Below are positions 5,545 through 29,682 of a stretch of 64,000 nucleotides of DNA, in pieces; position 1 is the stretch's first letter, and each line of letters starts with the position of its first letter. Source of the stretch: an uncultured Pseudomonadales bacterium (GTDB lineage: Bacteria; Pseudomonadota; Gammaproteobacteria; Pseudomonadales; Porticoccaceae); NCBI GenBank assembly GCA_943846685.1, contig OX044363.1:248001-312000 (forward strand), given 5' to 3'. Made by a program: the position numbers and the translations under genes. The notes beneath the pieces were generated by a model. That model was given only the letters and a program-made list of their open reading frames with translations, had not been told where the DNA came from and ran no database searches.

Positions 5545-8500
5545 TTACTGCTCAATGGTAAAGCCGTAAGGTGCCGCATTAACGGTTTTGCCATCGCTGT
5601 AGGTTACGGTCTTGGTCTGACCGGTAAAGTTATAAACCACATAGGTTCTAACCGCACCTTTATCAAACGCAACTGCCGCCGGATCATTGGCCGTCAGTTC
5701 ACCAGTACCCATCTTAAAGTGACCTAGCTCTTTAAAGGTATGCAACCAGTGGTAGGTATGCGCCTTTGACTCACCGGCCTCAGCGCCATAGTTACTTCCA
5801 ACACTGTTGTAGTCTGCCAGGGCAGCATCAGCATCAGTCATGGCCCAGAGATTCCACCAGAGGTCAGTCCACTCATTGGCCTTAAGACCTGTGGGCTTAC
5901 CATTGGTTGACTCGGTCATACCCAGTTCAAAGTAGTCTTGCATATAGTCTGCATACTGACCCACATAGAGAATCAATGGGTTTGAAGGCAGACCCTGAAT
6001 ACCGAGAATATGCGCGTAAGCTGGGCTAAACCAGGTAGAGAAGTCGGCACCACTACCCCAGACAATCGAGGTGGTGATTTTGGTATAGCCCGCAGGGAAG
6101 TTATTGTAGTCTGCGCCGAGGTTGTTGTAGCCGTCGATATTGTTCCAGTACTGCCAGAAAGCCGAAGTCGTAGAGGCATGCATATACATACCCTTATCTA
6201 CAATATCCTCCTTACCCACTGCCAGACCATAAAGCACCATGGCGCCGTAGGCATTAGCTGCCTCTGAGGTAGACTCATTGTTATTGCCCTGTACTGCATC
6301 GCCTTTACCGTCAGCCCAAGAAAAACCATTGGCTGGGTCAAAGTTACGCAATTTCGGGAACATCTCTTCGCTATCATCACCCGCATAGTCACGAATCAGC
6401 AGCTCAATCATTGGGCCGTACTGATCGTCGCCACACCAGGCAACATCGACACGACAGATCTCAGCCGCAGCGCGCACAAAGTAGCCGTAGTGGAAGTGGT
6501 GATCAGCCATACGCTGGTGTGAGCCGTACGCTTCTTCGATACCAAACAGGGCATCCCACTCTTCGTCATAGGCGAAGTATTTATTGATATCCAGCTCACC
6601 ATCGGTCTCTGCGGTAAACCAGTCGGCAAGCTCAACTTTCAGCCAGTCGATTAACTCACCGGCTTCCGCGTCCATACCGATAGAATGTGCCAGAGCTGCA
6701 GTTTCAGCAACCTTGCCATAACCTTTACCGGACCAGTAGGTATCAGTACTGTTATACCACTCATCCTCACCCGCATTTACAAAGGAGGTAACCAGCGCTT
6801 CAAGAGTAGCCTGATCATAGGTTCCTGAAATTGAAGGCATGGTAGGCAGAACACCGGTAAATGGCAGGTCATAACTAAAGCCATCTGTCTCAGCGAACTT
6901 GATCATACCGCGAGCACTGCGGATCTTGTAAGCAGAGGTTGTCTGGTCAGAGTTCTTCCAGTGTAGCGGGTGCAGGCCAACAACAGTATCCGCTGGATTG
7001 CCCTGAGCATCTAGGTAGCTGTGATTGACGGTAACTGTATTGGTGCTTCGATCAACCGTGTAACCAATCTCAACGGAAGCTACTTTGTTGCGCGCTTTGG
7101 CAGCAAAGAAGTTGCTCATACTGTTACTTGAATCGCCACCTATCTCGGGAAGGTAGGTCAGGGTAAATTCTTTTGAGGTATTGTTAATGGTGATCTCATT
7201 GCTCGAGATATTAGAGAAGGTCGTTACTCCCTCACCACTCAATAAAATGTTATTGCGAATACCAGCAATATTAGTCCAGATACCCAGGTGGTTACCCTGA
7301 TTGTAGAAAGTACCTTTTTCTCCACCGTCTTCACGCAGTGTACGCACCAGTGGATTACCCTGATAAACCTTGAAATAAACATAGGGTGAGCCATGAACAA
7401 AGGTGGCATCCATCACTTGGGTAGCACCAGATTTCCACTGTACGGTCACTGAGCCATCGCTGTGATCCGCAACATAGGCATCCATATTGCTGTAAGCCGA
7501 GTTGGCAATTGCCACGCCTTCAAACACTTCATCAAAGGGCACTGGGCCTTCATATCTTGGGAATTTATTGCCGAAGTCTTTAAAGCCACTTGGAATACCG
7601 TTGATACGCGCGCCTTTATTGGAGATACGCGCTCTGATTGGATCTGGTGTGATATAGGCCGCTTTACTGACATCGCCAACAGTCATCTCACCAACAAATG
7701 AAACCGACCCCCACCACTTATGGGTTGGCACTGGTTTATTCAGGGCTTCACCGGTTAGCTGTGGAGACAACTTTGTAGGTGTTCCTGTCGGGATTCTTGA
7801 CTCTGCATCACAGGCGGCAATAGCCGGCTCTGTAACACCAGCATTGTAAATCCAGTTACCGTAGTCAACTGCACAGCGGTAGCTGGCAACATTGATGGTA
7901 TCGGAAACACTACCGGCACCATAAGGAAGGGCCGTATAGTCAGTTGTACTTGGCGGTAATGGCGTACCCGGATTGGGTTCTGCCTGGCCAACATCATCCG
8001 TCACTACGATATCTTTAACGATAACCGGTGAATTTCGCTCAACCACATACATCAGGAATGATGAGTAAGTATTTGACGCACCCTGCGATGGAACATTCAC
8101 AGTATATTCCTGCTCAGCTTCACCGCTGATCAAAATTGGTGGCAAGTCAAAGGCAGGCTGAACATCCGGATAAGGCATACGTTCAAATCTGAAATAGACA
8201 TTGGTATCACTGCCGCCCGGTGCAACCGCTGCGGTAAAGGTAATCGAACCTGCATTGGCAAAGGTGAAGGGATAGATATCCGTATTCAGGTTAGCAAAGC
8301 CAGCCCAAGCGTCTGCGACGGATGGGAAGCCATAGGATGAGTCTGCTTCCAGATACACTGCACCACCAAAGCCTTCGATCATATCAACCGCACCAACTGC
8401 GGTTGAGCTACCGTCTGTAGACCCACCATCAGTTGAACCGCCATCAGTAGTCCCGCCATCGGAAGAACCGTCTGTTGAACCGCCGTCAGTTCCACCCGAA

Positions 8501-9339
8501 TTATTACTGTGTGTAGTCACGACAATATCTTTGACCATTACCGTCTGATCTTGATCAACCACATACATCAGGAATGATGCGTAAGTATTGCCTGCAGCCT
8601 GTGCAGGAATAGCGACTGTGTATTGCTGCTCAGCTTCACCGCTGATAACCACAGAATCCAGATTAAAAGAGGGGTCGACATCTGGATGAGGCAAACGCTC
8701 AAATCTAAAGTAGACACCGGTATCACTGCCGCCCGCTGCGACTGCTGCTGTAAAGGTAATCGAACCGCCATTGGCAAAGGCAAACGGATAGATATCGGTA
8801 TTTAGGTTAGCAAAACCAGCCCATACTTCTGCACCTGCTGGATAGGTAAAGTTACTACCATCAACAATTGCACCACCAAAGCCTTCGATCATTTCAACCG
8901 CACCTACTGCGGTAGAGATACCATCTGTTGAACCGCCGTCTGTGGTGCCGCCGTCTGAAGAACCGTCTGAAGAACCGTCTGAAGAACCGTCTGAAGAACC
9001 GTCTGTAGAACCATCGGTAGAACCATCGGTAGAACCATCGGTAGAACCATCGGTAGAACCATCAGTTGAACCATCAGTTGAACCATCAGTTGAACCATCA
9101 GTTGAACCATCGGTAGAACCATCGGTAGAACCATCGGTAGAACCATCGGTAGAACCATCAGTTGAACCGTCAGTTGAACCATCGGTAGAACCGTCAGTAG
9201 TCCCACCATCAGTGTTACCCGGCGGAAGGGGGCTTTCGCCAGGATAAATACTGCCACCACCGCCACCACCGCCACCACAGGCTTGCAAAGTCAGTATCGA
9301 GACCAATAGATATAAAGGCGCTAAGCTCTTAATTTTCAA
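5545..9339 (-). CDS. GH81 endo-beta-1,3-glucanase lipoprotein with two CBM-like domains
   Basis: A large surface lipoprotein predicted to cut laminarin-type beta-1,3-glucan. I start it at the TTG at 9339, which has a GAGGGAG ribosome site 6-7 bases upstream; the longer frame begins with another TTG at 9354 (1269 aa). Signal peptide with lipobox LQAC is followed by poly-Gly. A TDGS-repeat linker (about residues 47-140) follows, then two copies of a beta-rich domain of about 130 aa (around 150-285 and 322-455) that begin MIEGFGGA and end VKDIVVT. The catalytic domain (about 475 to the end) shows GH81 hallmarks: [16 protein letters not shown] (about 950), FPKLRNFDP and [10 protein letters not shown] (about 1026), which hold the family Asp and Glu residues. 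The neighbouring lipoprotein gene shares the signal peptide and the repeat domain. Confidence 0.93.
8953..9192 (-). repeat. 12-bp minisatellite encoding (TDGS/SDGS)n
   Basis: Twenty uninterrupted 12-bp units occur inside the GH81 gene. Variants such as ATCGGTAGAACC, ATCAGTTGAACC and GTCTGAAGAACC (plus strand) occur in blocks of identical units, a sign of recent slippage. Each unit encodes four residues, so unit gain or loss keeps the frame and only changes linker length. Confidence 0.95.
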
Positions 9340-9497
9340 GATTTTCTCCCTCAAACTTCTTTAATTATTTTTTGTTTAGATTTTTATAATTTGGCTAAAT
9401 AGCCTTTTTTCCGCAATTATTATGAACCTGATCGAGAATAAAGATATAGGCATTCGACCAGTTGATTTGCTCTTGCGGTAAATGGGGCCTCTAAACG

Positions 9498-9575: not shown

Positions 9576-11945
9576 TTAAGGAGCAGGAGTTCCTGTAGTC
9601 CCGTTATCATCGCTTACAACAATATCTTTAACCATTACCGGCTGGTCTTGATCAACCACATACATCAGGAATGATGAATAAGTCGTGCCAGCAGCCTGAG
9701 CAGGAATAGTCACTGTGTATTCCATTTCAGTTTCACCAACAACCAATACAGGGTCGAGATTAAATGCTGGATCAACATCGGGGTGCGGCAGACGTTCAAA
9801 TCTAAAGTAGACGCTAGTATCCGCACCACCGGCAGGAACCGCTGCCGTAAAGGTGATTGAGCCACCGTTATCAAAGGTAAACGGATAGATATCAACATTT
9901 AAGTTAGCAAAACCAGCCCAAACCTCAGCACCTGCAGGGTAGGTAAAGGTAGTGCCGTCAACTAGCGCGCCACCAAAACCTTCGATCATTTCAACACCAA
10001 CGGTATCAACGCTGCCGCCATCAGTAGTGCCGCCATCAGTAGTGCCGCCGTCGGTAGTGCCACCGTCAGCTGAACCATCTGTAGAACCGCCATCTGTAGC
10101 GCCACCGCCAGTAGTTCCACCAGCTGTACTACCGTTGTCATCAGTTACAACAATATCTTTAACCATTACCGGCTGGTCTTGATCAACCACATACATCAGG
10201 AATGATGAATAAGTCGTGCCAGCAGCCTGAGCAGGAATAGTCACTGTGTATTCCATTTCAGTTTCACCAACAACCAATACAGGGTCGAGATTAAATGCTG
10301 GATCAACATCGGGGTGCGGCAGACGTTCAAATCTAAAGTAGACGCTAGTATCCGCACCACCGGCAGGAACCGCTGCCGTAAAGGTGATTGAGCCACCGTT
10401 ATCAAAGGTAAACGGATAGATATCAACATTTAAGTTAGCAAAACCAGCCCAAACCTCAGCACCTGCAGGGTAGGTAAAGGTAGTGCCGTCAACTAGCGCG
10501 CCACCAAAACCTTCGATCATTTCAACACCAACGGTATCAACGCTGCCGCCATCAGTAGTGCCGCCATCAGTAGTGCCGCCGTCGGTAGTGCCACCGTCAG
10601 CTGAACCATCTGTAGAACCGCCATCAGTAGTGCCGCCGCCAGTCGTGCCACCAGCTGTACTACCATTGTCGTCAACTACAACGATATCCTTAACGATCAC
10701 CGGCTGGTCTTGATCAACCACATACATTAGGAATGATGAGTAAGTCGTGCCAGCTGCCTGGGCAGGAATAGTCACTATATATTCCAACTCAGTTTCGCCG
10801 ACGATCAATACAGGGTCGAGATTAAACGAGGGATCAACATCCGGGTGAGGTAAACGCTCAAATCGGAAGTAGATGCTAGTATCTGCGCCCCCGGCAGGAA
10901 CAGCCGCCGTAAAGGTGATTGAACCACCGTTATCAAAAGTGAACGGATAGATATCAACGTTTAAGTTAGCAAATCCAGCCCATACCTCGGAACCCGCTGG
11001 GTAAGTAAAGGTAGTGCCATCAACCAGCGCGCCACCAAAACCTTCGATCATTTCAACACCAACAGTATCAGTGCTGCCATCAGTAGAGCCGCCATCGGTA
11101 GTACCACCGTCAGCTGAACCATCTGTAGAACCGCCATCGGTAGTACCACCGTCAGCTGAACCATCTGTAGAACCGCCATCGGTTGAACCAGTACCACGGT
11201 CGCCACCTGTGCTGCCGAGATCATCAGTTACAACAATGTCTTTAACCATAACAGACTGATCCTGATCAACCACATACATCAGGAATGATGAGTAAGTTGT
11301 GCCAGCTGCCTGGGCAGGAATGGTTACCGTATATTCAAGCTCAGTTTCGCCGACGATCAATACAGGATCGAGATTAAACGAGGGATCAACATCCGGATGA
11401 GGCAGACGCTCAAATCGGAAGTAGATGCTAGTATCCGCGCCACCGGCAGCAACAGCTGCAGTAAAGGTGATCGAGCCACCGTTATCAAAAGTAAACGGAT
11501 AAACATCAACATTTAAGTTGGCAAAACCAGCCCATACCTCAGCACCTGCTGGATAGGTAAAGGTAGTACCGTCAACCAGTGCGCCACCAAAACCTTCAAT
11601 CATTTCAATTGAAGCAGGTTCGGCAGTGCCGCCGTCAGTTGAACCACCATCAGTAGCTCCGCCGTCTGTAGTTCCACCATCGGTTGAACCACCATCAGTA
11701 GTGCCACCATCAGTAGTGCCACCATCAGTAGCGCCGCCGTCTGAAGTACCATCAGTAGCGCCGCCGTCTGAAGTACCATCAGTAGTGCCGCCGTCTGTAG
11801 TGCCGCCGTCTGTAGTGCCGCCGTCTGTAGTGCCCGTATCAGGGACGGAAGGCTCTGGAATAATACCAGCGCCACTTCCGCCACAGGCCTGTAACGTCAG
11901 CGATAAAACCAATACATATAAAGGTGCTAAGCTCTTAATCTTCAA
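9576..11945 (-). CDS. Lipoprotein made of four tandem CBM-like domains, putative beta-glucan-binding protein
   Basis: No catalytic domain is present. The start is placed at the TTG at 11945 (GAGGGG site 7 bases upstream, as in the GH81 gene); a longer TTG frame begins at 11960 (794 aa). The signal peptide is nearly identical to that of the GH81 protein and ends in LQAC. Linkers of TDGG/TTDGG units separate four copies of the same beta-rich domain (MIEGFGGA ... [11 protein letters not shown] ... [17 protein letters not shown] ... [13 protein letters not shown] ... MYVVDQDQ ... VKDIVV). The same domain appears twice in the adjacent laminarinase. A role as a surface glycan-binding protein that holds laminarin for the enzyme is inference from architecture and neighbourhood. 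The domain family itself I could not name. Confidence 0.85.
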   Translation of the reverse strand: MKIKSLAPLYVLVLSLTLQACGGSGAGIIPEPSVPDTGTTDGGTTDGGTTDGGTTDGTSDGGATDGTSDGGATDGGTTDGGTTDGGSTDGGTTDGGATDGGSTDGGTAEPASIEMIEGFGGALVDGTTFTYPAGAEVWAGFANLNVDVYPFTFDNGGSITFTAAVAAGGADTSIYFRFERLPHPDVDPSFNLDPVLIVGETELEYTVTIPAQAAGTTYSSFLMYVVDQDQSVMVKDIVVTDDLGSTGGDRGTGSTDGGSTDGSADGGTTDGGSTDGSADGGTTDGGSTDGSTDTVGVEMIEGFGGALVDGTTFTYPAGSEVWAGFANLNVDIYPFTFDNGGSITFTAAVPAGGADTSIYFRFERLPHPDVDPSFNLDPVLIVGETELEYIVTIPAQAAGTTYSSFLMYVVDQDQPVIVKDIVVVDDNGSTAGGTTGGGTTDGGSTDGSADGGTTDGGTTDGGTTDGGSVDTVGVEMIEGFGGALVDGTTFTYPAGAEVWAGFANLNVDIYPFTFDNGGSITFTAAVPAGGADTSVYFRFERLPHPDVDPAFNLDPVLVVGETEMEYTVTIPAQAAGTTYSSFLMYVVDQDQPVMVKDIVVTDDNGSTAGGTTGGGATDGGSTDGSADGGTTDGGTTDGGTTDGGSVDTVGVEMIEGFGGALVDGTTFTYPAGAEVWAGFANLNVDIYPFTFDNGGSITFTAAVPAGGADTSVYFRFERLPHPDVDPAFNLDPVLVVGETEMEYTVTIPAQAAGTTYSSFLMYVVDQDQPVMVKDIVVSDDNGTTGTPAP
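9604..10665 (-). repeat. 531-bp tandem duplication within the lipoprotein gene
   Basis: Two consecutive 531-bp units (177 aa each, one domain plus linker) are almost identical at the DNA level, for example across 9710-9898 versus 10241-10429. A third unit upstream has the same 531-bp period but has diverged, and the most N-terminal one lies at a spacing of about 551 bp. The gradient points to recent expansion at the C-terminal end. Confidence 0.92.
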
Positions 11946-12253
11946 AATTTTTCCCCTCAATTGATTCGGGTAACTACCCGTTTTTATTACATTTCCCCAG
12001 CCAAATAACTTAGGAAAACTTATTATAATTAATTCTATATTACACCTGTGACCCGCAAAACCAACCCCCTACGCGTTCACAGGCTAAAAATATGCGACCA
12101 ATGGGGCATTCACTAGTGAATAGTCGTAATAACCCGCCAAGCTGCGGCCAACGGTGCTTGACTCCCCCAGTATTCTTAGCGCTTGGAATATAACTTTTAT
12201 TTTTTGCCGCAGGCAAAACTCACTCTATTGCAATTCTCGTGGGAAATTACAGG

Positions 12254-12283
12254 CAAAAAAAAGGCCCCATTGCTGGGGCCTTT
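12254..12283 (-). terminator. Rho-independent terminator after the beta-helix lipoprotein
   Basis: Stem AAGGCCCC / GGGGCCTT with an ATTGCT loop. On the minus strand it is followed by eight T, 25 bases after the stop of the 12308-15118 gene. The remaining DNA between 11961 and 12250 holds no gene that I can see. Confidence 0.92.
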
Positions 12284-12307: not shown

Positions 12308-15118
12308 CTAGAGGGAACCTTCAATTACCCACTCACTGAACCAAGGTGTAGCGCCTTCTTTAACTGCGCCCACAAAGTCAGTCGAGTCAAAGACGAAGCC
12401 AGAACCATTGTCCAGAGCAGTAATATCTGTAGCTGGTACAGAGGCACTGTCGTTAGTGATGGCATAGTTGGCATCGAGAACAATCACTTCTTCAGTTACC
12501 GTTGAACCTGCAACTGGCTCTTCCTTATTAAAGGCAACACCCACAGTGTCACACAGGAAGTTGTTCAGAGTGATAGGTGTATCGATCTTCGGCGTGTTTG
12601 CATCACCGTCGTTATCTGAATCATCGATACGGGCACAGGTTACATCGTAGCCAGTGACCGCTGAGTTGTGGATTGCAGCCGTGACTGAACCGCGCAGACG
12701 CATACCAAACTCACCCGCTGAGTTAGCTGCATCACCACCGATAATAGTTACGTTGGCGATAACACCAGCAGTCTGAGGTGTGTAGCTGGCATCAGAAGAG
12801 TTCAGCTCGATACCGCGGGGATCATTTGAACCCACTGGAACAGCACCAGGAGTTTGATTCTTAATGATCAGCGCGTACTGAATGTTACCCATGTAGCCTT
12901 CGTCAAAGTCGATATCATCATCGTCATTGTCAGTAAGAACAGCGTGAGTCACATTTACAGTACCACCGAACCACTCGATACCATCATCCTGGTTACCGTG
13001 AACCTGAACATAGTCGATCAATGTACCGTGACCAACACCTTGCAGAGTCAGACCGTTAATCTCGTTATTTGGACCAGCGATCAGACCGCCTTCAGCGATA
13101 CGCACATAACGGATAATACCGCTGTTGTCGTCGGCAATAGCGCCACCGTACTCTTTAACAAAGTCTCCGCCTTCACCCTGTACGTTACACCAGGCTTCGC
13201 CGTCGGCATAACAAACACCAGTGTCGCCCTGACCATACTGTGGTGCGAAGCCCTGAACGATTACACCGCCCCACTCGCCAGTACCATCATAGCCAGTATC
13301 AAGGCTGCTGAAAGTAATTGGGCTTGTAGCAGAACCGTTAGCAATCAGCTTGGAACCACGAGTTACCAGCAGAACGCCGTCAGCAAATGCGTTGACATCG
13401 ACACCAGCGCGGATCGTCAGGGTTACACCCTGAGCAACCACTGCGTCGTAATCTTCAACAGACGTGATCTCAACATTGCCGTTACCCACTTTTACAACAC
13501 CTTCTAAACGGTATTCAACACCAGCAACCATTGTGTAGTCTTTGTCGATAGTGCCAGTCATAGTACAGACAGTCTTAGAGGCGTTACATACTGCAAAGCT
13601 CTCTTCCTGTACTTCTTCCTGGAATCCAACAGAACCGGGAATTGTCCAGTCAGCCCACCAAGGCATTGAAGCAGAAGGGTCTACAGCACCCACAAAGTTA
13701 GTTGAGTCGAATACAAAACCTGAACCGTTATCAAAGGCGGCAATATCAGTTGGAGCGCCGAGCATTGCCGATGAATTGATGATGGCGAGGTTGTCGTCAA
13801 AGTTGATACCTTCTTCAATAACCGTTGAACCAGCTACCGGATCTTCCTTATTAAAGGCAACACCTACAGTGTCACACAGGAAGTTGTTCAGAGTGATAGG
13901 TGTATCAATCTTCGGCGTGTTTGAATCACCGTCGTTATCTGAATCATCGATACGGGCACAGGTTACATCGTAGCCAGTGACCGCTGAGTTGTGGATTGCA
14001 GCCGTGACTGAACCGCGCAGACGCATACCGAACTCACCTTTAGAGTTAGCTGCATCACCACCGATAATAGTCACGTTGGCAATTACACCAGCAGTCTGAG
14101 GTGTGTAGCTGGCATCAGAAGAGTTCAGCTCGATACCGCGGGGATCATTTGAACCAACAGGAACAGCACCAGGGGTCTGGTTTTTGATAATCAGCGCGTA
14201 CTGAATGTTACCCATGTAACCTTCATCAAAATCGATATCATCATCGTCATTGCCAGTCAGAACAGCGTGAGTTACGTTAGCTGTACCACCGAACCACTCG
14301 ATACCATCATCCTGGTTACCGTGAACCTGAATGTAGTCAATCACAGTGCCGTGACCAACACCTTGCAGAGTCAGACCATTGATCTCGTTGTTTGGACCAG
14401 CGATCAGGCCGCCTTCAGCAATACGCACATAACGGATAACACCGCTGTTATCATCGGCAATATTGCCGCCGTATTCTTTAACGAAGTCACCGCCTTCGCC
14501 CTGAACGTTACACCAGACTTCACCGTCGGCGAAACAAGCGCCAGTGTCGCCCTGGCCATACTGTGGTGCGAAGCCCTGAACCACTACGCCACCCCATTCG
14601 CCCATGCCATCATAGTCAGCGTCGAGGCTGCTAAATGTAATTGGGCTGGTTGCTGAACCATCAGCAATCAATTGAGAACCGCGAGTTACCAGCAAAACGC
14701 CATCAGCGGCAGCTTTAACATCTGAACCAGCTTCTACTGTCAGCTCAACACCCTGAGCAACAACTGCGTCGTACTCAACCTGAGAAGCGATCGCTACATT
14801 GCCGTTACCAACCTGAACAACACCGCTGAGGATGTAGTTTACTTCTTGCAAAAATGTGTAATCAGTGTCGATAGTGCCTGTTACCGTGCCCTGTGAGCAA
14901 TCATCGTTGAAAGCAACGAACGCTGCTTCTTCAACCTGAGCACAGAGACCAGTGACAACTGGCGTTTCAACATCTGGCGTCTCTGTTGTTGTAACACTGT
15001 TATCAATAACATCGCCTTCAACGTTTACCGTAATGTCACCTGCGCTCTCGCTGTTGCCATCACAACCTGCGAGTGCCATAGAGGCTAGCAGGCACCCTAC
15101 ATATAGATTAGTTCTCAT
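12308..15118 (-). CDS. Large duplicated beta-helix-like lipoprotein paired with a TonB-dependent receptor
   Basis: A 936-aa lipoprotein (signal peptide MRTNLYVGCLLASMALAGC, lipobox LAGC) made of two copies of a roughly 430-aa module. Each module starts with a C-x7-C-x-GTI/TGTID segment and continues with short repeating strands typical of right-handed beta-helices (EWGGVVVQGFAPQYGQG, YVRIAEGG, IDYIQVHGNQDDGIEWFGG). Each also has acidic patches (NDDDDIDFDEG, DDSDNDGD) likely to bind calcium. Similar proteins occur next to TonB-dependent receptors in other marine bacteria, but I know of no assigned function. It starts 90 bp after the receptor frame with no terminator between, so I infer co-transcription from the Pho-box promoter at 18367-18395 and a role with the receptor at the cell surface. 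Confidence 0.82.
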   Translation of the reverse strand: MRTNLYVGCLLASMALAGCDGNSESAGDITVNVEGDVIDNSVTTTETPDVETPVVTGLCAQVEEAAFVAFNDDCSQGTVTGTIDTDYTFLQEVNYILSGVVQVGNGNVAIASQVEYDAVVAQGVELTVEAGSDVKAAADGVLLVTRGSQLIADGSATSPITFSSLDADYDGMGEWGGVVVQGFAPQYGQGDTGACFADGEVWCNVQGEGGDFVKEYGGNIADDNSGVIRYVRIAEGGLIAGPNNEINGLTLQGVGHGTVIDYIQVHGNQDDGIEWFGGTANVTHAVLTGNDDDDIDFDEGYMGNIQYALIIKNQTPGAVPVGSNDPRGIELNSSDASYTPQTAGVIANVTIIGGDAANSKGEFGMRLRGSVTAAIHNSAVTGYDVTCARIDDSDNDGDSNTPKIDTPITLNNFLCDTVGVAFNKEDPVAGSTVIEEGINFDDNLAIINSSAMLGAPTDIAAFDNGSGFVFDSTNFVGAVDPSASMPWWADWTIPGSVGFQEEVQEESFAVCNASKTVCTMTGTIDKDYTMVAGVEYRLEGVVKVGNGNVEITSVEDYDAVVAQGVTLTIRAGVDVNAFADGVLLVTRGSKLIANGSATSPITFSSLDTGYDGTGEWGGVIVQGFAPQYGQGDTGVCYADGEAWCNVQGEGGDFVKEYGGAIADDNSGIIRYVRIAEGGLIAGPNNEINGLTLQGVGHGTLIDYVQVHGNQDDGIEWFGGTVNVTHAVLTDNDDDDIDFDEGYMGNIQYALIIKNQTPGAVPVGSNDPRGIELNSSDASYTPQTAGVIANVTIIGGDAANSAGEFGMRLRGSVTAAIHNSAVTGYDVTCARIDDSDNDGDANTPKIDTPITLNNFLCDTVGVAFNKEEPVAGSTVTEEVIVLDANYAITNDSASVPATDITALDNGSGFVFDSTDFVGAVKEGATPWFSEWVIEGSL

Positions 15119-15207
15119 GTTTAGCTTTCCTATTTAATGTGTTTTAAATTTTTTAGCGAAATATCCCAAATGGTAAATTCCGCTTTACCTACTACCGATT
15201 TGTAAAA

Positions 15208-16356
15208 TTAAAGTCTGTAATCCAGAGATAAACTGATCGATGTTCCGACTTCATAAACCTCGATTAAGTTATTGTTTTGCGTATAGCTGACTGGCTCATC
15301 CGTTAGGTTTTTAAGCTTGAGTTTTACCGTCCACTGCTCTGAGAAGGACTTCTCGTAATTCATATCAACAAGGGTTCGCCCAACTTCAACAACCGGCCCC
15401 AGTGCAGCGCCTCGCGCAGTGCGGAAGATTCGATCGTCAAAATAGTTAACCAGCAGAGTGACCTTCTGCTCGGATGGATAATGGTCGTAACCAATCTGCA
15501 GGTTTGCCAGGTATTCAGACTGGCCCTGTAGCTGACGGCCATTGGAACCGGCACCTTCAAGCTGCAGCGACTTGGCGCCCAGAGTTACGGCAGAATCGAT
15601 AAATGTAATATTGCCGTTGACGAAAACCGAGTGATCATCGCGATCAAATACCACGCTGTTGAAATCAAATTCGATGCCATCGAGTTCTGCGGCTTCCTGA
15701 TTTCTAAAGGTAATACCATCGGCAGCGGAACCAGAAGCGTCTGGAATTGCACGCTCTACAGGATTGATAATTTCCTTATTGAAGAGTGCCAGCGAAACAC
15801 TGTTGCTCTCACCAAAGTAGTACTCCATACGTAAATCGAGGTTATCGATCTCGGAAACCATCAGCTCCGGTGTACCAAAAATAGGATCATCCGTTGATGG
15901 GTCATAGGACTGTGATGCAGAGCGCTCGATAAGACCGGGGTATGAAACTGTCTGGCTGTAACCCAAGCGCAACTGAAGTTCTTCAGTGGCACGCCAAGAC
16001 AGGTTAAATGCCGGGTACCAAGCTTCGTGTTCCAGAGTGCCAGCCGCAGCTGATAAGGAATTAGGGTAGCTAATATCCTGACTAAAGCTTTCAAAGCGTG
16101 CACCCAATTCGGCTGTCCAGGCGCTGCCCAATTCATTGATCGCTTTTAGGTAATAGCCCTCTATTTTCTCTGCGGAGGCGTAGGAGTCGGTCGATCCAGT
16201 CGCTGGTCGCAGTCTAAATGCATCGGCGGCAAAATTTTCAACCGACAATAGAGATTCAATGCCATCAGTTACATTCAGGGAAATTGGATCATCACCCAGT
16301 CGAATACCGAAACGGTAGAGATCAACCGTTCGCTGCTTTATCCGAAGCCAGAGCAC
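15208..16356 (-). CDS. TonB-dependent receptor, C-terminal part (after frameshift)
   Basis: This frame encodes the second half of the beta-barrel of the receptor that begins at 18247. It has alternating hydrophobic strands, LGYSQTVSYPGLIERS, LDLRMEYYFGESNSVSLALF and a closing strand ending SLSLDYRL. The apparent GTG start at 16356 is probably not used, since the first residues are the tail of the other frame. Skipping one base near 16331-16337 joins ...GALASDKA to RTVDLYRFGIRLG, which reads as an uninterrupted barrel strand. Whether this is a true mutation or a sequence error cannot be told here. Confidence 0.8.
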   Translation of the reverse strand: MLWLRIKQRTVDLYRFGIRLGDDPISLNVTDGIESLLSVENFAADAFRLRPATGSTDSYASAEKIEGYYLKAINELGSAWTAELGARFESFSQDISYPNSLSAAAGTLEHEAWYPAFNLSWRATEELQLRLGYSQTVSYPGLIERSASQSYDPSTDDPIFGTPELMVSEIDNLDLRMEYYFGESNSVSLALFNKEIINPVERAIPDASGSAADGITFRNQEAAELDGIEFDFNSVVFDRDDHSVFVNGNITFIDSAVTLGAKSLQLEGAGSNGRQLQGQSEYLANLQIGYDHYPSEQKVTLLVNYFDDRIFRTARGAALGPVVEVGRTLVDMNYEKSFSEQWTVKLKLKNLTDEPVSYTQNNNLIEVYEVGTSISLSLDYRL

Positions 16357-18247
16357 CCACTACCAGAGAGGTGAAATTTTCAGCGCCCCACTCGAAAGAG
16401 CCGGTGTAGTCAAAACCAATATCATTACTGACTTCGTTCAGGTCTGACCAGCGACGCTCAAGTGACGATGTTGCCAGGCTGCCGTTCTGTAAGAAGTACT
16501 GGCGACGATCCGGTTCGATACGATCAGTTTCCGAGTAACCAACACGCCAATCGATCTTGCTCTCCAGATCACCCAGGTAAAAATCATAGAGACCACTGAC
16601 GCTCTGGGAGAACAGCTGGCGCTGCACATATTCTAAAATTGTCTTGTCGCGGTTAACGCCTTCAATATCCACAGCAACGGTGTTTCTCGAGGTGTCATCT
16701 GTAGAGCGCAACAGGGTTGTCTTGGAGAGAATTTCACCGCGGTCAAACTCATAGCCAACCACGCCGTAGCCATTCACAGAAACTGTGTCCTGTGTGCGGT
16801 TATACATACCGGTCAGGTTAATTGGGTTGCTCAGGCTTGCGTCGCCGCGGTAGCCAGTTGTGCGTCCATAGGAGGCGGCAACAAAGTAACCGAGCTCGCC
16901 TTCAGCAAAATCAAAGCGATCGCCAAAGTCCGCATCAAAGCCAATATTTGGATTGGCATTAACCGGTTCCAGATCATAGTCGGGCTTAAAGGTAAGCGCG
17001 TAGGCAAGTGCTACTTCAGGGCGGGTACAGATATCGGCTATCTCAGGATCACAGATAGTCAGTGAAGTACCACCGTTTGTGGCTTCTAATACACCGCTGT
17101 GAATATCTCTTAAGCCGCTGTCAAAGCCAGCCCACTCAGTAACTGAGTCGCGATAGCCCTGCACATCATCACCGGTAAAGCTGCTGTTAAACCCGGTGGA
17201 CACTGACAGGCTGCCAACGCGTTCATCGGGCAGGCCTTTGGTTTTTACAGCGATCGAGCCACCAGTTGTGGATGCCAGCTGATCTGCTGAAAATGATTTT
17301 TGAACGGCAATCGATTCAACAATATTTGACGGGAAAAGGTCGAGCTGGATATCGCGACGCAGTGGATCCGTACTCGGCATCAGAATGCCATTAAAGTTGG
17401 TGGCGATATAGCGGCCGTCGAGACCACGAACATTGGCGTACTTGCCTTCACTGACACTGAGGCCAACAATTCGGCCAATCGCCAGTGCCACATCACTGTC
17501 ACCAAAGCGGGCAATCTGATCGGCATCCATCGCGCTGACAATTGACGAAGCGTACCGCTGAATATCACCAGCGCCTTCGGTTGGGTTAAATACACCCAGA
17601 GTAACCACCTCTTCCAGACGTGGGGTCGGCAGTGCAATAGCGGAATCCGCTGGCGGCTTTTTCAATAACTTAAAGCGCGCATTAACACCCAGATCAGCAA
17701 ATACTCGAATAGCATCGACACTGGAAGATCTGTATCCATCTCTGGTGATTTCAACACTGTGCACACCGCGGGGAAGTTCAAGGGTATAAATACCTTCAGC
17801 GTTGGTCTCTGTGGATAATTGAATATCGACCACTTCAACGGTTGCACCGACAATCGGCAGCCCGGAGGGTGAGGTAACCACACCGGCAATATAACCAGAG
17901 GCATCGCTGTCAGCAGTAAAGGCCTGGCTTTTTACCACCGGCTCAACACCCTGCTCTCGGCTGAATACAGCTGAGACTTCAACTTCGCCGTTTTTGGGGA
18001 TATTAAATCTAACCGGAATCGCCAGATCGTCATCAATCAAATAGAGCTTGTGGGCACCAGGCTTCAATGAGGCCTGAATCAGACCCTTGCCATCAGTGAC
18101 GCCAACAATCTTGCCGTCGACAGCAACTTTCACATGTCGAAGCGGTGCATCTTCAAGAAACACAAGGACAAAAAGGTCCTCAGCCAACGCCTTGGGCGCT
18201 ATAAATGAAGCTACCAAACTCAATACAAAAAACCATTTTCTGGCCAT
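16322..18247 (-). CDS. TonB-dependent receptor, N-terminal part with carboxypeptidase-like regulatory domain
   Basis: The first 641 residues of an outer-membrane active transporter of about 1010 aa in total. A signal peptide (ending PKALAED) is followed by a PEGA-like segment (about 25-100). A carboxypeptidase-regulatory-like domain (about 115-190, GVVTSPSGLPIVGATVEV) comes next, then a TonB-box-like LEEVVTLG (about 212) and the plug domain (VRGLDGRYIATNFNGI, SIAVQKSFSADQLASTTGGSI). The first barrel strands follow. The frame ends early at 16322 because of one extra base. Three or more PhoB half-sites lie upstream, so it is probably made under phosphate limitation and may import a phosphorus compound such as an organic phosphate. 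The substrate is inference only. Confidence 0.88.
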   Translation of the reverse strand: MARKWFFVLSLVASFIAPKALAEDLFVLVFLEDAPLRHVKVAVDGKIVGVTDGKGLIQASLKPGAHKLYLIDDDLAIPVRFNIPKNGEVEVSAVFSREQGVEPVVKSQAFTADSDASGYIAGVVTSPSGLPIVGATVEVVDIQLSTETNAEGIYTLELPRGVHSVEITRDGYRSSSVDAIRVFADLGVNARFKLLKKPPADSAIALPTPRLEEVVTLGVFNPTEGAGDIQRYASSIVSAMDADQIARFGDSDVALAIGRIVGLSVSEGKYANVRGLDGRYIATNFNGILMPSTDPLRRDIQLDLFPSNIVESIAVQKSFSADQLASTTGGSIAVKTKGLPDERVGSLSVSTGFNSSFTGDDVQGYRDSVTEWAGFDSGLRDIHSGVLEATNGGTSLTICDPEIADICTRPEVALAYALTFKPDYDLEPVNANPNIGFDADFGDRFDFAEGELGYFVAASYGRTTGYRGDASLSNPINLTGMYNRTQDTVSVNGYGVVGYEFDRGEILSKTTLLRSTDDTSRNTVAVDIEGVNRDKTILEYVQRQLFSQSVSGLYDFYLGDLESKIDWRVGYSETDRIEPDRRQYFLQNGSLATSSLERRWSDLNEVSNDIGFDYTGSFEWGAENFTSLVVGALASDKAANG

Positions 18248-18344
18248 CTTCCACCCAACCTCGCGTCATGACTGTTAAATTCAATTATTTGAGGCGCACG
18301 TAAATGCGCCTTGCATCAATAAGGATGCAAATTAACAGTCAAAA

Positions 18345-18395
18345 ATGACGATGGCGTGAATGTTTAATGACAGAAAAATGACTTAAATATGACAG
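18345..18395 (-). promoter_or_regulatory. Tandem Pho-box half-sites upstream of the TonB-dependent receptor
   Basis: On the minus strand TGTCAT (18389-18394), AGTCAT (18378-18383) and TGTCAT (18367-18372) follow each other at exactly 11 bp. A further CGTCAT at 18345-18350 is two 11-bp steps away. The most upstream 20 bases, beginning CTGTCATATTTAAGTCAT, match the PhoB box consensus (CTGTCAT-N4-CTGTCA(C/T)). The array lies about 120-150 bp before the start at 18247. Confidence 0.8.
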
Positions 18396-18430
18396 ATTTA
18401 ATTACTTCTTACCTTGCGCAAGAAGCATCA

Positions 18431-18470
18431 GCTAACCACAGAAAAGGGCTTCTATGGTTAGCTATTTTTT
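18431..18470 (+). terminator. Hairpin with U run on the plus strand near the phoU end
   Basis: GCTAACCACAG and CTATGGTTAGC can pair (one mismatch) and are followed by TATTTTTTAG on the plus strand. No plus-strand gene ends here, so it may block antisense reading into phoU or act as a 3' end hairpin for phoU. Confidence 0.4.
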
Positions 18471-18477
18471 AGACTAT

Positions 18478-19158
18478 CTACTGATGCCTGATATCTTTAC
18501 CTTTAACAACAAAGACAATTTGCTCGCAGAGGTTTTTCGCGTGATCGCCAATGCGCTCCAGAGAGCGAACAACCCAGAGAATATTAATCGCACGGCTAAT
18601 GCTGCGAGGATCTTCCATCATGTAGGTGACTAACTCGCGCAGGGCTGTTTTGTAGTCGAGGTCGATCTGCTTGTCTTCTTCTATAGTGCGCATTGCAGCA
18701 TCTACATCAAAACGCGCAAAGGCATCCAGTGCATTAGCTAACATGCTGACAACTGACTGACCCAGGTGACGAACCTCAGTGTAACCTTCGGATGTCTTGC
18801 TTTCACCGGCGAGGATAATTGCGTGATTGGCAATCTTTTTCGCTTCGTCGCCAATACGCTCCAAATCGTTAACCGCTTTGGTCACCATCATCACCAGACG
18901 CAGATCGCTGGCCGCGGGCTGGCGGCGAGCAATAATAAGAATACAGGCTTCATCGATATCGACTTCCATCTCATCAACTAACTGCTCTTCCCTAATCACC
19001 TCTTCGGCCAATTTGCTGTCTGCATCACTGACCGCACGGATCGCATTTTGTAGCTGCTGCTCGACCTTGCCACCCATCTCCATAAGACGGGTACGAATCT
19101 CTTCAAGCTCGTCGTCGAACTGCTTCATGTAATGATTTTCGAACTTCATTTTGTCCAT
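18478..19158 (-). CDS. phoU: Phosphate signalling regulator PhoU
   Basis: A 226-aa all-helical protein of two three-helix repeats. It contains the PhoU metal-cluster type motifs (RIGDEAKKIANHA and RIGDHAKNLCEQIV). It links the Pst transporter to PhoR so that signalling is off when phosphate is plentiful. The ATG is preceded by an AGGGGAG ribosome site. It is the last gene of pstC-pstA-pstB-phoU, 30 bases after pstB, as in enterobacteria. Confidence 0.97.
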   Translation of the reverse strand: MDKMKFENHYMKQFDDELEEIRTRLMEMGGKVEQQLQNAIRAVSDADSKLAEEVIREEQLVDEMEVDIDEACILIIARRQPAASDLRLVMMVTKAVNDLERIGDEAKKIANHAIILAGESKTSEGYTEVRHLGQSVVSMLANALDAFARFDVDAAMRTIEEDKQIDLDYKTALRELVTYMMEDPRSISRAINILWVVRSLERIGDHAKNLCEQIVFVVKGKDIRHQ

Positions 19159-22843: not shown

Positions 22844-23902
22844 TTATTTCAATGCTTCTTTGCCTGTCATAGGCACTAAATTTCTAGTGTTTGCAGCCAT
22901 CACCTTGCGCTCGGCATCTGGCAGCGGGATCATACCTTTCTCAGCAAGATATCCCTCTTCGCCCCAAGCCTTCTCGCTAGCGAACTCATTGAGGAAACCT
23001 TGGATACCAGGCACAACACCTACGTGGGCTTTCTTAACATAGAAGAACAGCGGACGTGATACCGGGTAAGACTTGTCAGCAATTGACTCAAAGGTTGGCT
23101 CAACTGATTCAATCTGTGAACCCTGAACCTTGTCGGCATTCTGGTCGAGGAAGCTAAAGCCAAATACACCAAGGGCAGCCGGGTTTGCTTCAAGCTTCTG
23201 AACGATCAGGTTATCGTTTTCACCAGCTTCGATGTAGCGACCGTCTTCACGTACTGTGTGACAGATAGCCTTGTAGGCGCTCTTATCTTTCTTTTTAAGG
23301 GCAGCAATCCAGGCAATCTTCTTACAGCCACCTTCCATTGCCAACTCGGCGAATGCATCGCGAGTACCAGAGGTTGGCGGTGGGCCAAGTACTTCAATGG
23401 CAGTGTTGGGCAGTGAAGCATTAACCTGCTTCCAAGTGCTGTACGGGTTATCGACCAGCTCGCCTTCTTTTTCGCCGGGAACCTGAGCAGCCAGCGCAAG
23501 GAAGATATCCTTACGGGTAAGCTTCATTGGCGCTACCTTTATAGAGTTAGCAATAACGATACCGTCATAACCAATCTGAACTTCAATAATCTCTTTAACG
23601 CCATTGCTCTGGCACAGCTTGTACTCAGAAGCCTTCATACGACGTGAAGAGTTAGTGATATCCGGGTAGTTGGTGCCAACACCGGAGCAAAATAATTTCA
23701 TGCCGCCGCCAGAACCCGTAGATTCGATTTTTGGAGTAGGCTTGCCACTGGCACGACCGTAACGCTCAGCAACGACAGTTGAAAAAGGGTATACAGTTGA
23801 AGAACCTACAACTTCAATGCTGTCACGAGCCATTGCAGATGATGTAGCTGTTATTGAAGCCACTGTGAATAAGATGGCTGTGATTATTGTACGTTGGGTC
23901 AT
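22844..23902 (-). CDS. pstS: Periplasmic phosphate-binding protein PstS
   Basis: A 352-aa secreted protein, started at the ATG at 23902 because a GGAGG site lies 5-8 bases upstream and a clean signal peptide follows (MTQRTIITAILFTVASITATSSAMA). A longer open frame to 23989 runs through the Pho box and is not plausible. The phosphate-site segments VGSSTVYPF, SGGGMKLFC and TSGTRDAF are present. It delivers phosphate to PstCA. It is the first gene of the pst cluster and is preceded by a near-consensus Pho box at 23981-24000. Confidence 0.96.
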   Translation of the reverse strand: MTQRTIITAILFTVASITATSSAMARDSIEVVGSSTVYPFSTVVAERYGRASGKPTPKIESTGSGGGMKLFCSGVGTNYPDITNSSRRMKASEYKLCQSNGVKEIIEVQIGYDGIVIANSIKVAPMKLTRKDIFLALAAQVPGEKEGELVDNPYSTWKQVNASLPNTAIEVLGPPPTSGTRDAFAELAMEGGCKKIAWIAALKKKDKSAYKAICHTVREDGRYIEAGENDNLIVQKLEANPAALGVFGFSFLDQNADKVQGSQIESVEPTFESIADKSYPVSRPLFFYVKKAHVGVVPGIQGFLNEFASEKAWGEEGYLAEKGMIPLPDAERKVMAANTRNLVPMTGKEALK

Positions 23903-23980
23903 ATAAACCTCCACATTCAAGCACGGTAATGTGCTGTTGATTAAACTAACTTTGATGACGGAAATGAGGATATTGAAGTT

Positions 23981-24000
23981 ATATGACACAAATATGACAG
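23981..24000 (-). promoter_or_regulatory. Pho box upstream of pstS
   Basis: The minus-strand sequence CTGTCATATTTGTGTCATAT carries two TGTCAT half-sites 11 bp apart with an AT-rich spacer. It lies about 80 bases before the pstS start and faces it. Confidence 0.9.
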
Positions 24001-25239: not shown

Positions 25240-26514
25240 TTATTGAGACACCGGCAGCCGGCAGATAAATTCCGCACCCTGCCCCAATCTGCTATTGATA
25301 GTCAGCTGCCCACCGCAGCGTCCCAACGCGTGCTTCACAATTGCCAGACCCAAACCTGTGCCACCGGTATCGGAATTACGACTGCTATCACCGCGATAAA
25401 AACGCTCAGTGAGTCGCGGAATCTCCATCGGATCTATACCCTTGCCACTGTCCTTGACCGAGATATTAATAAAGCCCCCATAGCTGGTCACAGTGACCGC
25501 AACAGATGCCCCATCCGGATTGTGGCGCACCGCATTAAAGACCAGATTGCCCAACACACTGCGGATATCCTTGGGGTCAGCCTCAACACTAACCGCCTCG
25601 GGGCAGTTGAGAGTTATTTTATGCTTACCATTACTGAGCAACTCAGCTTCAGCGACAATCTCTTTAAGTAGATCCGCCAGACCTACCGTTTCAAAAGCCG
25701 GCTTCTGGTCATCGGCTTCCAGTCGGGAAATCATAATTAGGTCGTCAGCTAGAGACTGCATACGATCGACCTGCTCAGACATCTGGGCATACGCCTTGCC
25801 GGAAATCGGATTGTCCGAAGGCATAAGCTGCAGGGTTTCCAGATAACCGCGCATCACCGTCAGTGGTGTGCGCAACTCATGGGAAACATTGCCAACAAAT
25901 TCTTTGCGCAACTGCTCAAGGCCGTCGAGACGGCTTATATCAGTAACCACCAGAACAATTTCATCGGCACCAAAGTATGAGGCGGCAAATTGCTGCATAG
26001 TGCCGGTGGGACTGGAAGTGTTCAGCTTGAGAGCGCCAACAAATTCTTTCTGGGTGATATAACTGACAAAAGCCGGGTCGCGAATTAAATTTGTCACTGC
26101 GCTGCCGCGATCAACAGAGCGCAGACCCAACAGCTTTGCCGCAGAGCTATTCCACCAGTCTATGGTCAGATCACTGCGCAACACCAAAATACCTTCGCCC
26201 AGGGCTTCAGTTAGCCGGGTGACTCGATTAATGGTGCGGCGCATTTTTTCCTGGGTGCGGCGATGGCGGCGGCGCTGGCGATTTAACGTATCGCTAATTT
26301 CGCCCCAGACACCGTCGGTGTCCGGAGGAGTGCCGCGCATACCTTTATCGATCCAGCTGAATATCAGATTGATTATGCGGAAGGTCCAGAGTACGTAGAT
26401 AACGACTCCGGCGAGAAATAATTCAAAGGGAGCGCCGAGGCTCAGACCAAATAACAGGGAGAACAGGCATACCAATACCACACGCCATATCTCTGTATGC
26501 ATTCCCGGTCGCAA
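25240..26514 (-). CDS. phoR: Phosphate regulon sensor histidine kinase
   Basis: Inner-membrane kinase of 424 aa that phosphorylates PhoB when phosphate is scarce. Two hydrophobic helices (about 9-50) are followed by a charged linker, a PAS domain (about 105-205), the HisKA helix with the phosphorylated His in VSHELRTPLTVMRGYLE and the ATP-binding domain (NLVFNAVRHN, DSGKGID, GGTGLGLAI). The start is uncertain: the TTG at 26514 has an AGAGGGTG site 10 bases upstream, while an ATG lies four codons later (26502). It follows phoB by 17 bases in one operon. Confidence 0.96.
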   Translation of the reverse strand: MRPGMHTEIWRVVLVCLFSLLFGLSLGAPFELFLAGVVIYVLWTFRIINLIFSWIDKGMRGTPPDTDGVWGEISDTLNRQRRRHRRTQEKMRRTINRVTRLTEALGEGILVLRSDLTIDWWNSSAAKLLGLRSVDRGSAVTNLIRDPAFVSYITQKEFVGALKLNTSSPTGTMQQFAASYFGADEIVLVVTDISRLDGLEQLRKEFVGNVSHELRTPLTVMRGYLETLQLMPSDNPISGKAYAQMSEQVDRMQSLADDLIMISRLEADDQKPAFETVGLADLLKEIVAEAELLSNGKHKITLNCPEAVSVEADPKDIRSVLGNLVFNAVRHNPDGASVAVTVTSYGGFINISVKDSGKGIDPMEIPRLTERFYRGDSSRNSDTGGTGLGLAIVKHALGRCGGQLTINSRLGQGAEFICRLPVSQ

Positions 26515-26531
26515 CGAATTTACACCCTCTA

Positions 26532-27233
26532 TTAAGCATTTTTTAGCTGGGCTGAAAAACGGTAGCCTGCTCCGCGCACAGTCTGCACATAGTTTTCATG
26601 TCCTGCAACCGAAATTGCTTTGCGCAGACGACGAATATGAACATCCACCGTTCGCTCATCGAGGTAGACATTGCCGCCCCAGACATAATCGAGAATCTGG
26701 TCGCGGGAGTAAACTCGCTCTTGATGGGTGAGAAAGAATTGCAAAAGCCGATATTCGGTGGGACCCAGATTGATCGCCTGATCAGCAATACTCACCCGGT
26801 GTCCAATTGGGTCAAACACCAGCTGACCTATAGAGATAGGCTCCTGAAGTTCCTCACGGCCAACCCGTCGAAGAACGGCCTTGACGCGGGAAATCAACTC
26901 GCGCGGAGAAAAGGGTTTGGGGATAAAGTCATCAGCGCCAGCATCCAGACCAGAGATCTTACTATCTTCCTCAGCTTTGGCGGTAAGCATAATCACCGGA
27001 ATTCTGGCGGTCAGATCATCGCGCTTTAGGCGGCGCAATAACTCCAGCCCTGTGGTGCCAGGCATCATCCAATCCAGCAAGACCAGATCAGGTTGTTTAT
27101 CAATTATCGCGGCGTGAGCCTGTTGCGCATTCTCTGCATCCAATACATTAAAATCTGCCGCTTCCAGTGCTATACACAACATATCTCGAATCGCCGCTTC
27201 GTCATCGACGATTAAAACCGTATGCTTCGGCAT
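26532..27233 (-). CDS. phoB: Phosphate regulon response regulator PhoB
   Basis: A 233-aa OmpR-type regulator. The receiver domain holds the acidic pocket (VDDEAAI), the phosphorylated Asp in LVLLDWMMPG, and the Thr/Lys pair (MLTAKAE, PKPFSPREL). The C-terminal winged helix recognises Pho boxes (RVYSRDQILDYVWG, DERTVDVHIRRLRKAI). I place the start at 27233 because an AAGG site precedes that ATG by 8 bases. An in-frame ATG at 27254 has no ribosome site. A Pho box at 27282-27301 indicates autoregulation. Confidence 0.96.
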   Translation of the reverse strand: MPKHTVLIVDDEAAIRDMLCIALEAADFNVLDAENAQQAHAAIIDKQPDLVLLDWMMPGTTGLELLRRLKRDDLTARIPVIMLTAKAEEDSKISGLDAGADDFIPKPFSPRELISRVKAVLRRVGREELQEPISIGQLVFDPIGHRVSIADQAINLGPTEYRLLQFFLTHQERVYSRDQILDYVWGGNVYLDERTVDVHIRRLRKAISVAGHENYVQTVRGAGYRFSAQLKNA

Positions 27234-27281
27234 GGTAATAACCTTATCATTCATTTATAGACGACTCATTTAATGGCGAAT

Positions 27282-28377: not shown

Positions 28378-28583
28378 TGATGATTCCTCTTTGCTATTTA
28401 CTTAAAGCTCTTGATGGAAAGCTCTTTATTAGGAGCTCTGTATCGATAGCTCTAAATAGAAAGTTCATTGAAATCGTTTTATTCGGTGATTTCTCACGAG
28501 CTGTTCGCAGTTTTAATGTTCGCCGGTTCTCAAATAGCCCTGCGTGACAGAATATTGTGAGCTGTGTCGACAAAAACGTTCCC

Positions 28584-28611
28584 CGTCATACTGCTGTAAT
28601 AAAACTGTAGT
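28584..28611 (+). promoter_or_regulatory. Possible degenerate Pho-box array before gap-arsJ
   Basis: CGTCAT (28584-28589), TGTAAT (28595-28600) and TGTAGT (28606-28611) are spaced exactly 11 bp apart, as PhoB half-sites would be, but two of them deviate at the key bases. The same stretch also belongs to the TAATAAAA-type repeats common in this genome, so the resemblance may be chance. Confidence 0.25.
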
Positions 28612-28674: not shown

Positions 28675-29682
28675 ATGACTATCAGAATCGGAATTAACGG
28701 CTTTGGCCGCATGGGCAGATTATCCCTCCGCGCTGCGTGGCACTGGGACAACTTTGAAATTGTCCATATCAACGAAGTCGCCGGCGATGCCAAGAGTGCA
28801 GCACACCTTTTAAAATACGACTCGGTGCACGGCACCTGGGACGAAGAGATCAGCTCAACTGAGGGCAGCTCATCAATTCAGATTGGCGATCGCAGCATTA
28901 GCTACTCGCAAAATAAAAATATCGAAGATACCGACTGGTCCGGTGTGGATATGGTGATTGAGTGCAGCGGTAAATTTAAATCTCAGCAACTTCTGGCACC
29001 CTATTTTGATCAGGGCGTTAAAAAAGTTGTGGTCTCCGCGCCGGTAAAGGATGGCACCTTAAATATCGTCATGGGCGTTAACGATGACCAGTATCAGGAT
29101 CAAGCCATAGTTACCGCCGCCTCCTGTACTACCAACTGTCTGGCGCCGGTCATCGACGTACTCCAGAAAACCTTTGGTATAAAACACGGCGCCATAACCA
29201 CCATCCACGATATTACTAACACCCAGAGTATTCTTGATGAGTACCACAGCGATCTGCGCAGATCCCGCGCTAGCAGTATGTCGCTTATCCCGACTAGCAC
29301 AGGCTCGGCCACCGCGATCACCGAGATCTTTCCCGAACTAAAAGGCCGCTTAAACGGTCTGGCTGTTCGTGTTCCTCTGGCTAATGCTTCCCTAACTGAC
29401 TGCGTTTTTGAGCTCGAGCAAGATGTCACCGTTGAAAAAGTGAACAGTGCGCTAAAAACAGCTGCAGAAGGGCGACTAAAAGGCATTCTGGGTTTTGATG
29501 AGATTCCGCTAGTATCGGTGGATTACACCAACGATAAACGCTCGGGAATTGTCGATGGACTATCGACCATGGTGATCAATAACTCTCAGGTCAAAGTGCT
29601 TATCTGGTATGACAATGAAGTGGGTTATGTTAATCGCATGATGGAGCTGGCCGCTAAGGTCGCTGCCTCGATCAAAGATTAA
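28675..29682 (+). CDS. gap: ArsJ-associated glyceraldehyde-3-phosphate dehydrogenase
   Basis: A 335-aa NAD-dependent enzyme of the GAPDH fold ([17 protein letters not shown] at the start, catalytic Cys in [22 protein letters not shown] at the end). Members encoded beside arsJ use arsenate in place of phosphate and make 1-arseno-3-phosphoglycerate, which ArsJ exports. The next gene is arsJ, 20 bases downstream, so this role is favoured over central glycolysis. The ATG follows a run of short AT-rich repeats. No arsR-like regulator is present nearby. Confidence 0.9.

Follow-up and report, generated by a model that had tools for sequence, protein, structure and literature searches.

A candidate PhoB-controlled pair of a TonB-dependent receptor and a two-module beta-helix lipoprotein in a Porticoccaceae bacterium

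Lipoproteins linked to phosphate starvation and encoded next to a TonB receptor have been described before. The available part of the 2010 report on ElpS of Caulobacter crescentus (cc0170; PMC2996285) presents a phosphate-starvation lipoprotein of ~50 kDa that is anchored at the cell surface and then released in a manner dependent on the type II secretion system (T2SS). Its gene adjoins gspC-N and the TonB receptor gene cc0171, to which the authors expect it to be functionally linked; the starvation link comes with no mechanism in that part of the text. In Flavobacterium johnsoniae, excerpts of a second report describe the low-phosphate lipoproteins FI, FII and FIII (PUSIII/PUSIV), which have a pectin-lyase-type fold and are related to ElpS at 31–36%; FI and FII adjoin a TonB receptor, and FII lies inside the phoBR operon (PMC8115612). 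Caulobacter PhoB controls various TonB receptors, according to the part of a third report at hand (PMC11208175). Here we analyse a window, that is, the whole stretch of 64,000 nucleotides from a Pseudomonadales bacterium (Porticoccaceae; GCA_943846685.1, contig OX044363.1, positions 248,001–312,000), in which the genes of a TonB-dependent receptor and of a large ElpS-like lipoprotein follow phoU on the minus strand.

The pair resembles ElpS/cc0171 in that its lipoprotein is homologous to size-matched Caulobacter proteins, adjoins a TonB receptor and is linked to phosphate starvation. It differs in having two modules where ElpS has one, in placing the receptor first and in having no T2SS gene in the scanned flanks. 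The receptors also differ: those of lipoprotein-first loci have 855–923 codons, compared with 1012 in a close relative of the window (locus L008; L, P and G numbers are our handles), and the window type carries a carboxypeptidase-regulatory-like domain. The Flavobacterium proteins, set beside the window by description, share the fold, the low-phosphate link and the TonB neighbour and belong to another phylum. With SusC–SusD and PusCD the pair has in common a unit of TonB receptor and lipoprotein and the carboxypeptidase-regulatory-like N-domain of the receptor; however, Pfam gave no SusD match for the window lipoprotein, whose model is a beta-helix. BtuB–BtuG of Bacteroides differs in its substrate, cobalamin, and BtuG is a beta-propeller. 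The original prediction, made from the letters of the window, knew of no substrate or function for such a pairing; ElpS/cc0171 and FI/FII beside their TonB receptors are precedents, and this part of it is not supported. What appears new is the two-module version, the Pho-box-like sites conserved at group level across Pseudomonadota also where pst is absent and placed ahead of the lipoprotein where its gene leads, the TonB-motor genes a short way downstream at some loci, and the apparent exchange of cassettes in one slot. Our literature searches found nothing tying SAR92 to TonB, phosphate and PstS, and the part of PMC2536512 returned by the Alteromonas/Shewanella search has no bearing on the pair.

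The receptor–lipoprotein pair and its Pho box

The elements of the unit are as follows, in window coordinates (ORF, open reading frame).

18345..18395, minus strand: Pho box with three strong half-sites spaced by 11 bp and weaker ones in phase (read directly; triple score)
16322..18247, minus strand: receptor N-terminal piece with carboxypeptidase-regulatory-like domain, TonB plug and start of the barrel (ORF, family models)
15208..16356, minus strand: receptor C-terminal piece in a different frame, with the barrel of a TonB-dependent receptor (ORF, family models)
12308..15118, minus strand: lipoprotein of the ElpS-like family (precomputed label PF28492), 936 amino acids, two modules modelled as beta-helices
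13619..14941, minus strand: lipoprotein module 1, residues 60–500
12311..13606, minus strand: lipoprotein module 2, residues 505–936
18429..18464, minus strand: 16-pair hairpin 3' of phoU, separating pst–phoU from the pair (hairpin and fold analysis)
12260..12283, minus strand: intrinsic terminator directly 3' of the lipoprotein gene (10-pair stem, T run; fold z −3.3)

As in the Pho regulon, an 11-bp-repeat PhoB box stands ahead of the first gene of the pair. Some 100–150 bp from the receptor start codon the minus strand reads CTGTCAT-ATTT-AAGTCAT-TTTT-CTGTCAT, with more half-sites in phase: the three lie at 18389–18394, 18378–18383 and 18367–18372, with a fourth in phase at 18345–18350 and a weak one in between, and the places given in the original prediction proved correct. 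We scored such sites as the best run of three half-sites, using a PhoB half-site consensus. The 230-bp gap between phoU and the receptor reached 16.5, a score that none of 5000 dinucleotide shuffles equalled and the highest of the window on both strands, followed by phoB (15.0), pstS (14.5) and the porin (14.5). When the genome was searched with a two-half-site consensus and one mismatch, four sites were obtained, one at pstS, one at phoB and two at the porin; the Pho box of the receptor corresponds to two overlapping sites with two mismatches. Matches with at most two mismatches numbered 10 forward and 11 reverse in the genome, against 4 and 1 with the reversed pattern. No promoter was predicted at the Pho box by a standard scan.

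The hairpin and the terminator frame the pair in the sequence. Mere read-through from pst–phoU as an account of the pair was ruled out by the phoU hairpin, the pair's own Pho box and the terminator after the lipoprotein. PhoB would be expected to bind this site and induce the two genes, probably as one transcript. The phosphate genes predicted nearby were also recovered, with pstB/A/C identified by ORF order and translation and by tblastn matches in relatives, and the porin that carries a Pho box confirmed by a family model.

18478..19158, minus strand: phoU (family model)
22844..23989, minus strand: pstS (family model)
25240..27254, minus strand: phoR (25240–26514) and phoB (26532–27254) (family models)

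The lipoprotein gene starts 89 bp past the receptor stop, in agreement with the ~90 bp first proposed, and encodes a lipobox; a lipobox is also found in 69 of the 71 relatives of a 75-locus scan whose start was in view. Its two modules are homologous and 83% identical as aligned, and among the window core residues shared by both, 151 of 208 codons are identical. Both are modelled as right-handed parallel beta-helices, as anticipated. Among the Foldseek matches listed, single-module alignments gave the fold of alginate epimerases, PL6/PL9 lyases and polygalacturonases, and also that of tailspikes and NosD, a likeness of fold only; the whole two-module model gave low TM scores. A search of PDB sequences returned no match for the lipoprotein, three weak antibody matches for A3 and none for A5. 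The beta-helix core is homologous to Caulobacter P0192 (35% over 382 residues) and P0178 (40% over 269), which share the precomputed label PF28492. These Caulobacter relatives of ElpS size stood in for ElpS, and kinship with ElpS itself is suggested by size (the ~487-aa Caulobacter proteins fit ElpS), genus, neighbours and family. The lipoprotein is strongly acidic, with a net charge of −105, and anion binding by basic patches is therefore unlikely. It has many invariant acidic residues.

The receptor has the plug and beta-barrel domains of TonB-dependent receptors, and the nearest solved folds of its model are iron, haem and cobalamin receptors. A point absent from the original prediction is that in this assembly it consists of two overlapping ORFs, not one open frame, owing to one extra, uncompensated base near 16337 relative to L008 and L016. 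In these near-identical relatives the receptor is whole and in a single frame; the lipoprotein gene of L008 is unbroken as well, and L016 is the reverse of the window, its lipoprotein (10001–11692) being broken off after 564 codons. Either the strain has lost its receptor or the assembly is in error.

Pairing, Pho-box-like sites and slot among relatives

A first survey, started from a 14-sequence alignment and requiring one of two exact peptides, was not exhaustive and gave 75 loci from SAR92/Porticoccaceae, Halieaceae, Cellvibrionaceae, Nevskiales, Oceanospirillaceae and others. At 67 of them a receptor gene precedes the lipoprotein gene on the same strand, with a gap of 0–427 bp except in L017, where the receptor ORF is broken. 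A contig end cuts six of the remaining eight (L035, L039, L045, L061, L073, L074), and the upstream DNA present at L069 and L080 held no receptor match; the genome of L069, Co_bin.231, also has a full pair (L042). Linked pst genes occur at 15 of the 75 loci, all with SAR92-like genes. One locus labelled Flavobacteriaceae, L015, has pst and pair genes 53–86% identical to those of the window and modules that cluster with SAR92 types, and is probably a wrongly binned contig. In a second survey the family was found in 53 of 398 Pseudomonadota genomes, from which 40 stretches were taken, 38 of them lipoprotein-first. The lipoprotein gene adjoins a TonB receptor in the window; of the 115 loci of both surveys 107 show this pairing, the receptor leading at 69 and the lipoprotein at 38, and no receptor is in view at the other 8.

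Upstream regions were scored at 64 of the 67 receptor-bearing loci of the first survey, L021, L031 and L042 being left out because the receptor start was off the contig. Fifty of the 64 reach at least 9.5 in the 300 bp ahead of the receptor, as do about 6% of 568 other genes. The receptor upstream outscores the lipoprotein upstream both at the 15 pst-linked loci (medians 10.5 vs 7.5) and at the 49 others (9.5 vs 8.5; Wilcoxon p 4e-6), and the forward strand is the better one in 15/15 and 44/49 cases, respectively (2 ties, 3 reverse among the latter). Pairs consistently lacking Pho boxes or phosphate genes were to count against the original prediction; the opposite was observed, as the shuffle control gave p<=0.05 ahead of the receptor at 38 of the 49 loci without linked pst, and at 14 of the 15 with it. 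There was no Pho-box signal ahead of the receptor at L024, L028, L032 and L062 (p>0.2). These 49 loci rule out a mere effect of the pst neighbourhood, and the shuffle control together with the upstreams of other genes rules out AT-rich upstream DNA as the source of the sites.

Lipoprotein-first loci could be scored on 30 of the 40 stretches; the ORF caller found no lipoprotein gene at L113, L114, L116, L118, L119, L185, L186 and L191, L129 has the receptor first, and L189 has no receptor downstream. As a group, the lipoprotein upstreams of these 30 outscore those of 179 other genes (p 6e-13; 26 forward), and the receptor's own upstream scores 6.5–9.0 (null median 8). Taken together, the Pho-box-like site goes with whichever gene leads. 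Pho control and pairing, as originally proposed, are well supported.

Within the window's family, the lipoprotein is present in 34 of 112 genomes. By our reading of the match list, 21 have the window kind (57–100% identical, several as fragments only) and 13 a single-module kind (33–36%); none of the 34 lists a full match of both, and G499 has a third, partial match of 36%. In all five genomes of the window's genus examined for it, the single-module kind lies after phoU, lipoprotein first and then receptor, followed in four by a GH81-type gene. The gap after phoU scores 10–12 in four of these five slots; in the fifth (L193) the scoring script missed the gap because of a small ORF in the opposite direction. 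The single-module lipoproteins score 286–314 bits with another family of the order, 164–171 with Caulobacter P0192 and 122–133 with that of the window. Four genomes of the genus that do not carry the lipoprotein were examined as well: in all four the pair is missing from the slot and no gap site exceeds 8; phoU is followed by a GH81-type gene (1/4) or by other slot-flanking genes. The simplest account of these comparisons would be an exchange in which divergent cassettes of the ElpS-like type, all of them equipped with a Pho box, take one another's place in the slot or vanish from it. At L195 (G416, genes 9–10) the single-module slot has its receptor split between two ORFs, and at L199 (G463), which belongs to a different genus of the family, the single-module pair stands beside phoB, not phoU. 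A 1269-aa protein of the window (5545–9354, minus strand) has a C-terminal GH81 domain, and its relative follows phoU in pair-less L214.

A tree of 117 module cores places all 25 SAR92-type modules in one clade (100/99). Modules 1 and 2 often cluster by lineage and not by position, as supported sisters in eleven proteins (L009, L024, L029, L036, L037, L038, L040, L044, L047, L058, L059); those of Parahaliea- and Halioglobus-type proteins cluster by position, and L081 and L082 are on very long branches. Therefore, either duplications recurred or conversion keeps the modules alike. Seven family members of 1394–1565 aa (P0002, P0003, P0050, P0058–P0061) suggest three-module versions.

Neighbouring genes were counted on the DNA at hand, and the counts for TonB-motor and T2SS genes are lower bounds since 20 of the 40 second-survey stretches span 8–9.5 kb. 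TonB-motor genes (DUF3450, two ExbB, ExbD, TonB and a TPR protein, by Pfam on examples) lie close downstream at no fewer than 21 of 115 loci; within 4 kb they were found at at least 17/69 receptor-first, at least 3/38 lipoprotein-first and at least 1/8 other loci. T2SS genes follow the pair at a minimum of five of the 38 lipoprotein-first loci (gspC-F by Pfam in L124, by tblastn elsewhere). A phoB gene is on the stretch at four receptor-first and two lipoprotein-first loci, PhoB-like matches below 45% (L029, L048, L049) being left out. An acyltransferase-GNAT protein, presumably of OlsF type, and/or a phosphoesterase that we take to be PlcP-type is near 10 of 69 receptor-first loci by Pfam, none pst-linked and six within 5 kb.

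A possible role in phosphorus capture

We hold with moderate confidence that the pair is a PhoB-controlled unit for surface capture and TonB-driven import of phosphorus compounds. When phosphate is scarce, PhoB would switch on both genes through the Pho-box-type sites; the lipoprotein, predicted at the cell surface and perhaps in complex with the receptor, would capture phosphorus-bearing molecules, through Ca2+ or the sugar part of the substrate if we may guess; the receptor would bring them into the periplasm; and a periplasmic phosphatase, for which the genome has one PhoA-family gene (and no match to PhoX), would free phosphate for PstS. A more specific proposal, which we advance tentatively, is that ElpS-like lipoprotein and receptor form a proteobacterial counterpart of SusCD for phosphorus, as cassettes with their own Pho boxes that swap in a fixed slot after phoU, where the doubled beta-helix would use two arms and calcium to catch phosphorus-bearing polymers for a PhoB-controlled TonB importer.

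Several observations weigh against capture and import. The receptor is broken in the window assembly, and the aspartate after the lipid cysteine, an inner-membrane retention signal in E. coli, occurs in the window and in 11 of 69 relatives. The Pho-box evidence from relatives is a group effect: 11 of the 49 loci without linked pst have no clear site, and four of the 30 lipoprotein-first sites attain the 95% null level (10.5), the null possibly containing true sites itself. ElpS is shed, and the partner of a receptor need not be. As far as the ElpS report was available, ElpS is tied to more alkaline phosphatase activity (on overproduction) and not to transport, and cc0171 is constitutive and not phosphate-regulated (data not shown there; PMC2996285); the latter fits the lipoprotein-first layout and weakens co-function.

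The lipoprotein might instead be a secreted enzyme (a beta-helix lyase, a hydrolase or a phosphatase helper) that frees phosphorus from polymers, the receptor importing the product only, in line with the role proposed for ElpS and for FI/FII in the portions at hand (PMC2996285, PMC8115612). The lyase-like fold of the models, the phosphatase effect of ElpS, the T2SS-type secretin of the genome and the T2SS genes downstream of some lipoprotein-first pairs are consistent with it. The beta-helix, however, is common to many non-enzymes, PDB sequences gave no meaningful match, and the regular pairing with a receptor suits a binding partner at least as well; we judge such an enzyme rather unlikely, if worth keeping in mind. 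That the unit serves not a phosphorus compound but a metal or another trace nutrient, with uptake tied to phosphate stress, seems quite improbable: the receptor folds and the invariant acidic residues point that way, but iron, haem and cobalamin folds are generic for TonB receptors, and the pair repeatedly has Pho boxes and phosphate genes close by (no search for iron genes was made). It is also unlikely, to a degree between these two, that the unit is decaying in this lineage, with a real frameshift and a remnant pair kept by recency. The uncompensated base, the broken L016 lipoprotein, the split L195 receptor of the other slot type and the four genomes lacking the pair in the slot would agree with decay, whereas neither the lipoprotein nor the Pho box of the window is damaged, both genes are whole in L008 and the receptor is whole in L016, and several of these are metagenome assemblies, in which single-base errors are common.

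In our judgement the entry of organic phosphorus through the outer membrane of marine bacteria is largely an open matter. The Pho box at the leading gene, the nearby TonB-motor genes and the slot exchange make import by the pair testable in relatives such as Parahaliea and Thalassolituus strains, and in SAR92-type genomes the pair pattern could be used to mark phosphorus scavenging.

Other features of the window

Beyond the terminator, a lipoprotein-like ORF (9576–11960, minus strand) has four near-identical modules with long GGTTDGG-type linkers, and related repeats occur at L008 and L016; NCBIfam and Pfam matches of this repeat lipoprotein and of the two-module lipoprotein were weak and below cut-offs. 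On the plus strand, a GAPDH-like gene (28675–29682) and an MFS gene (29703–30881) stand behind two overlapping Pho-box-like sites (28583–28611), and resemble a GAPDH–ArsJ arsenate export pair, apparently under phosphate control.
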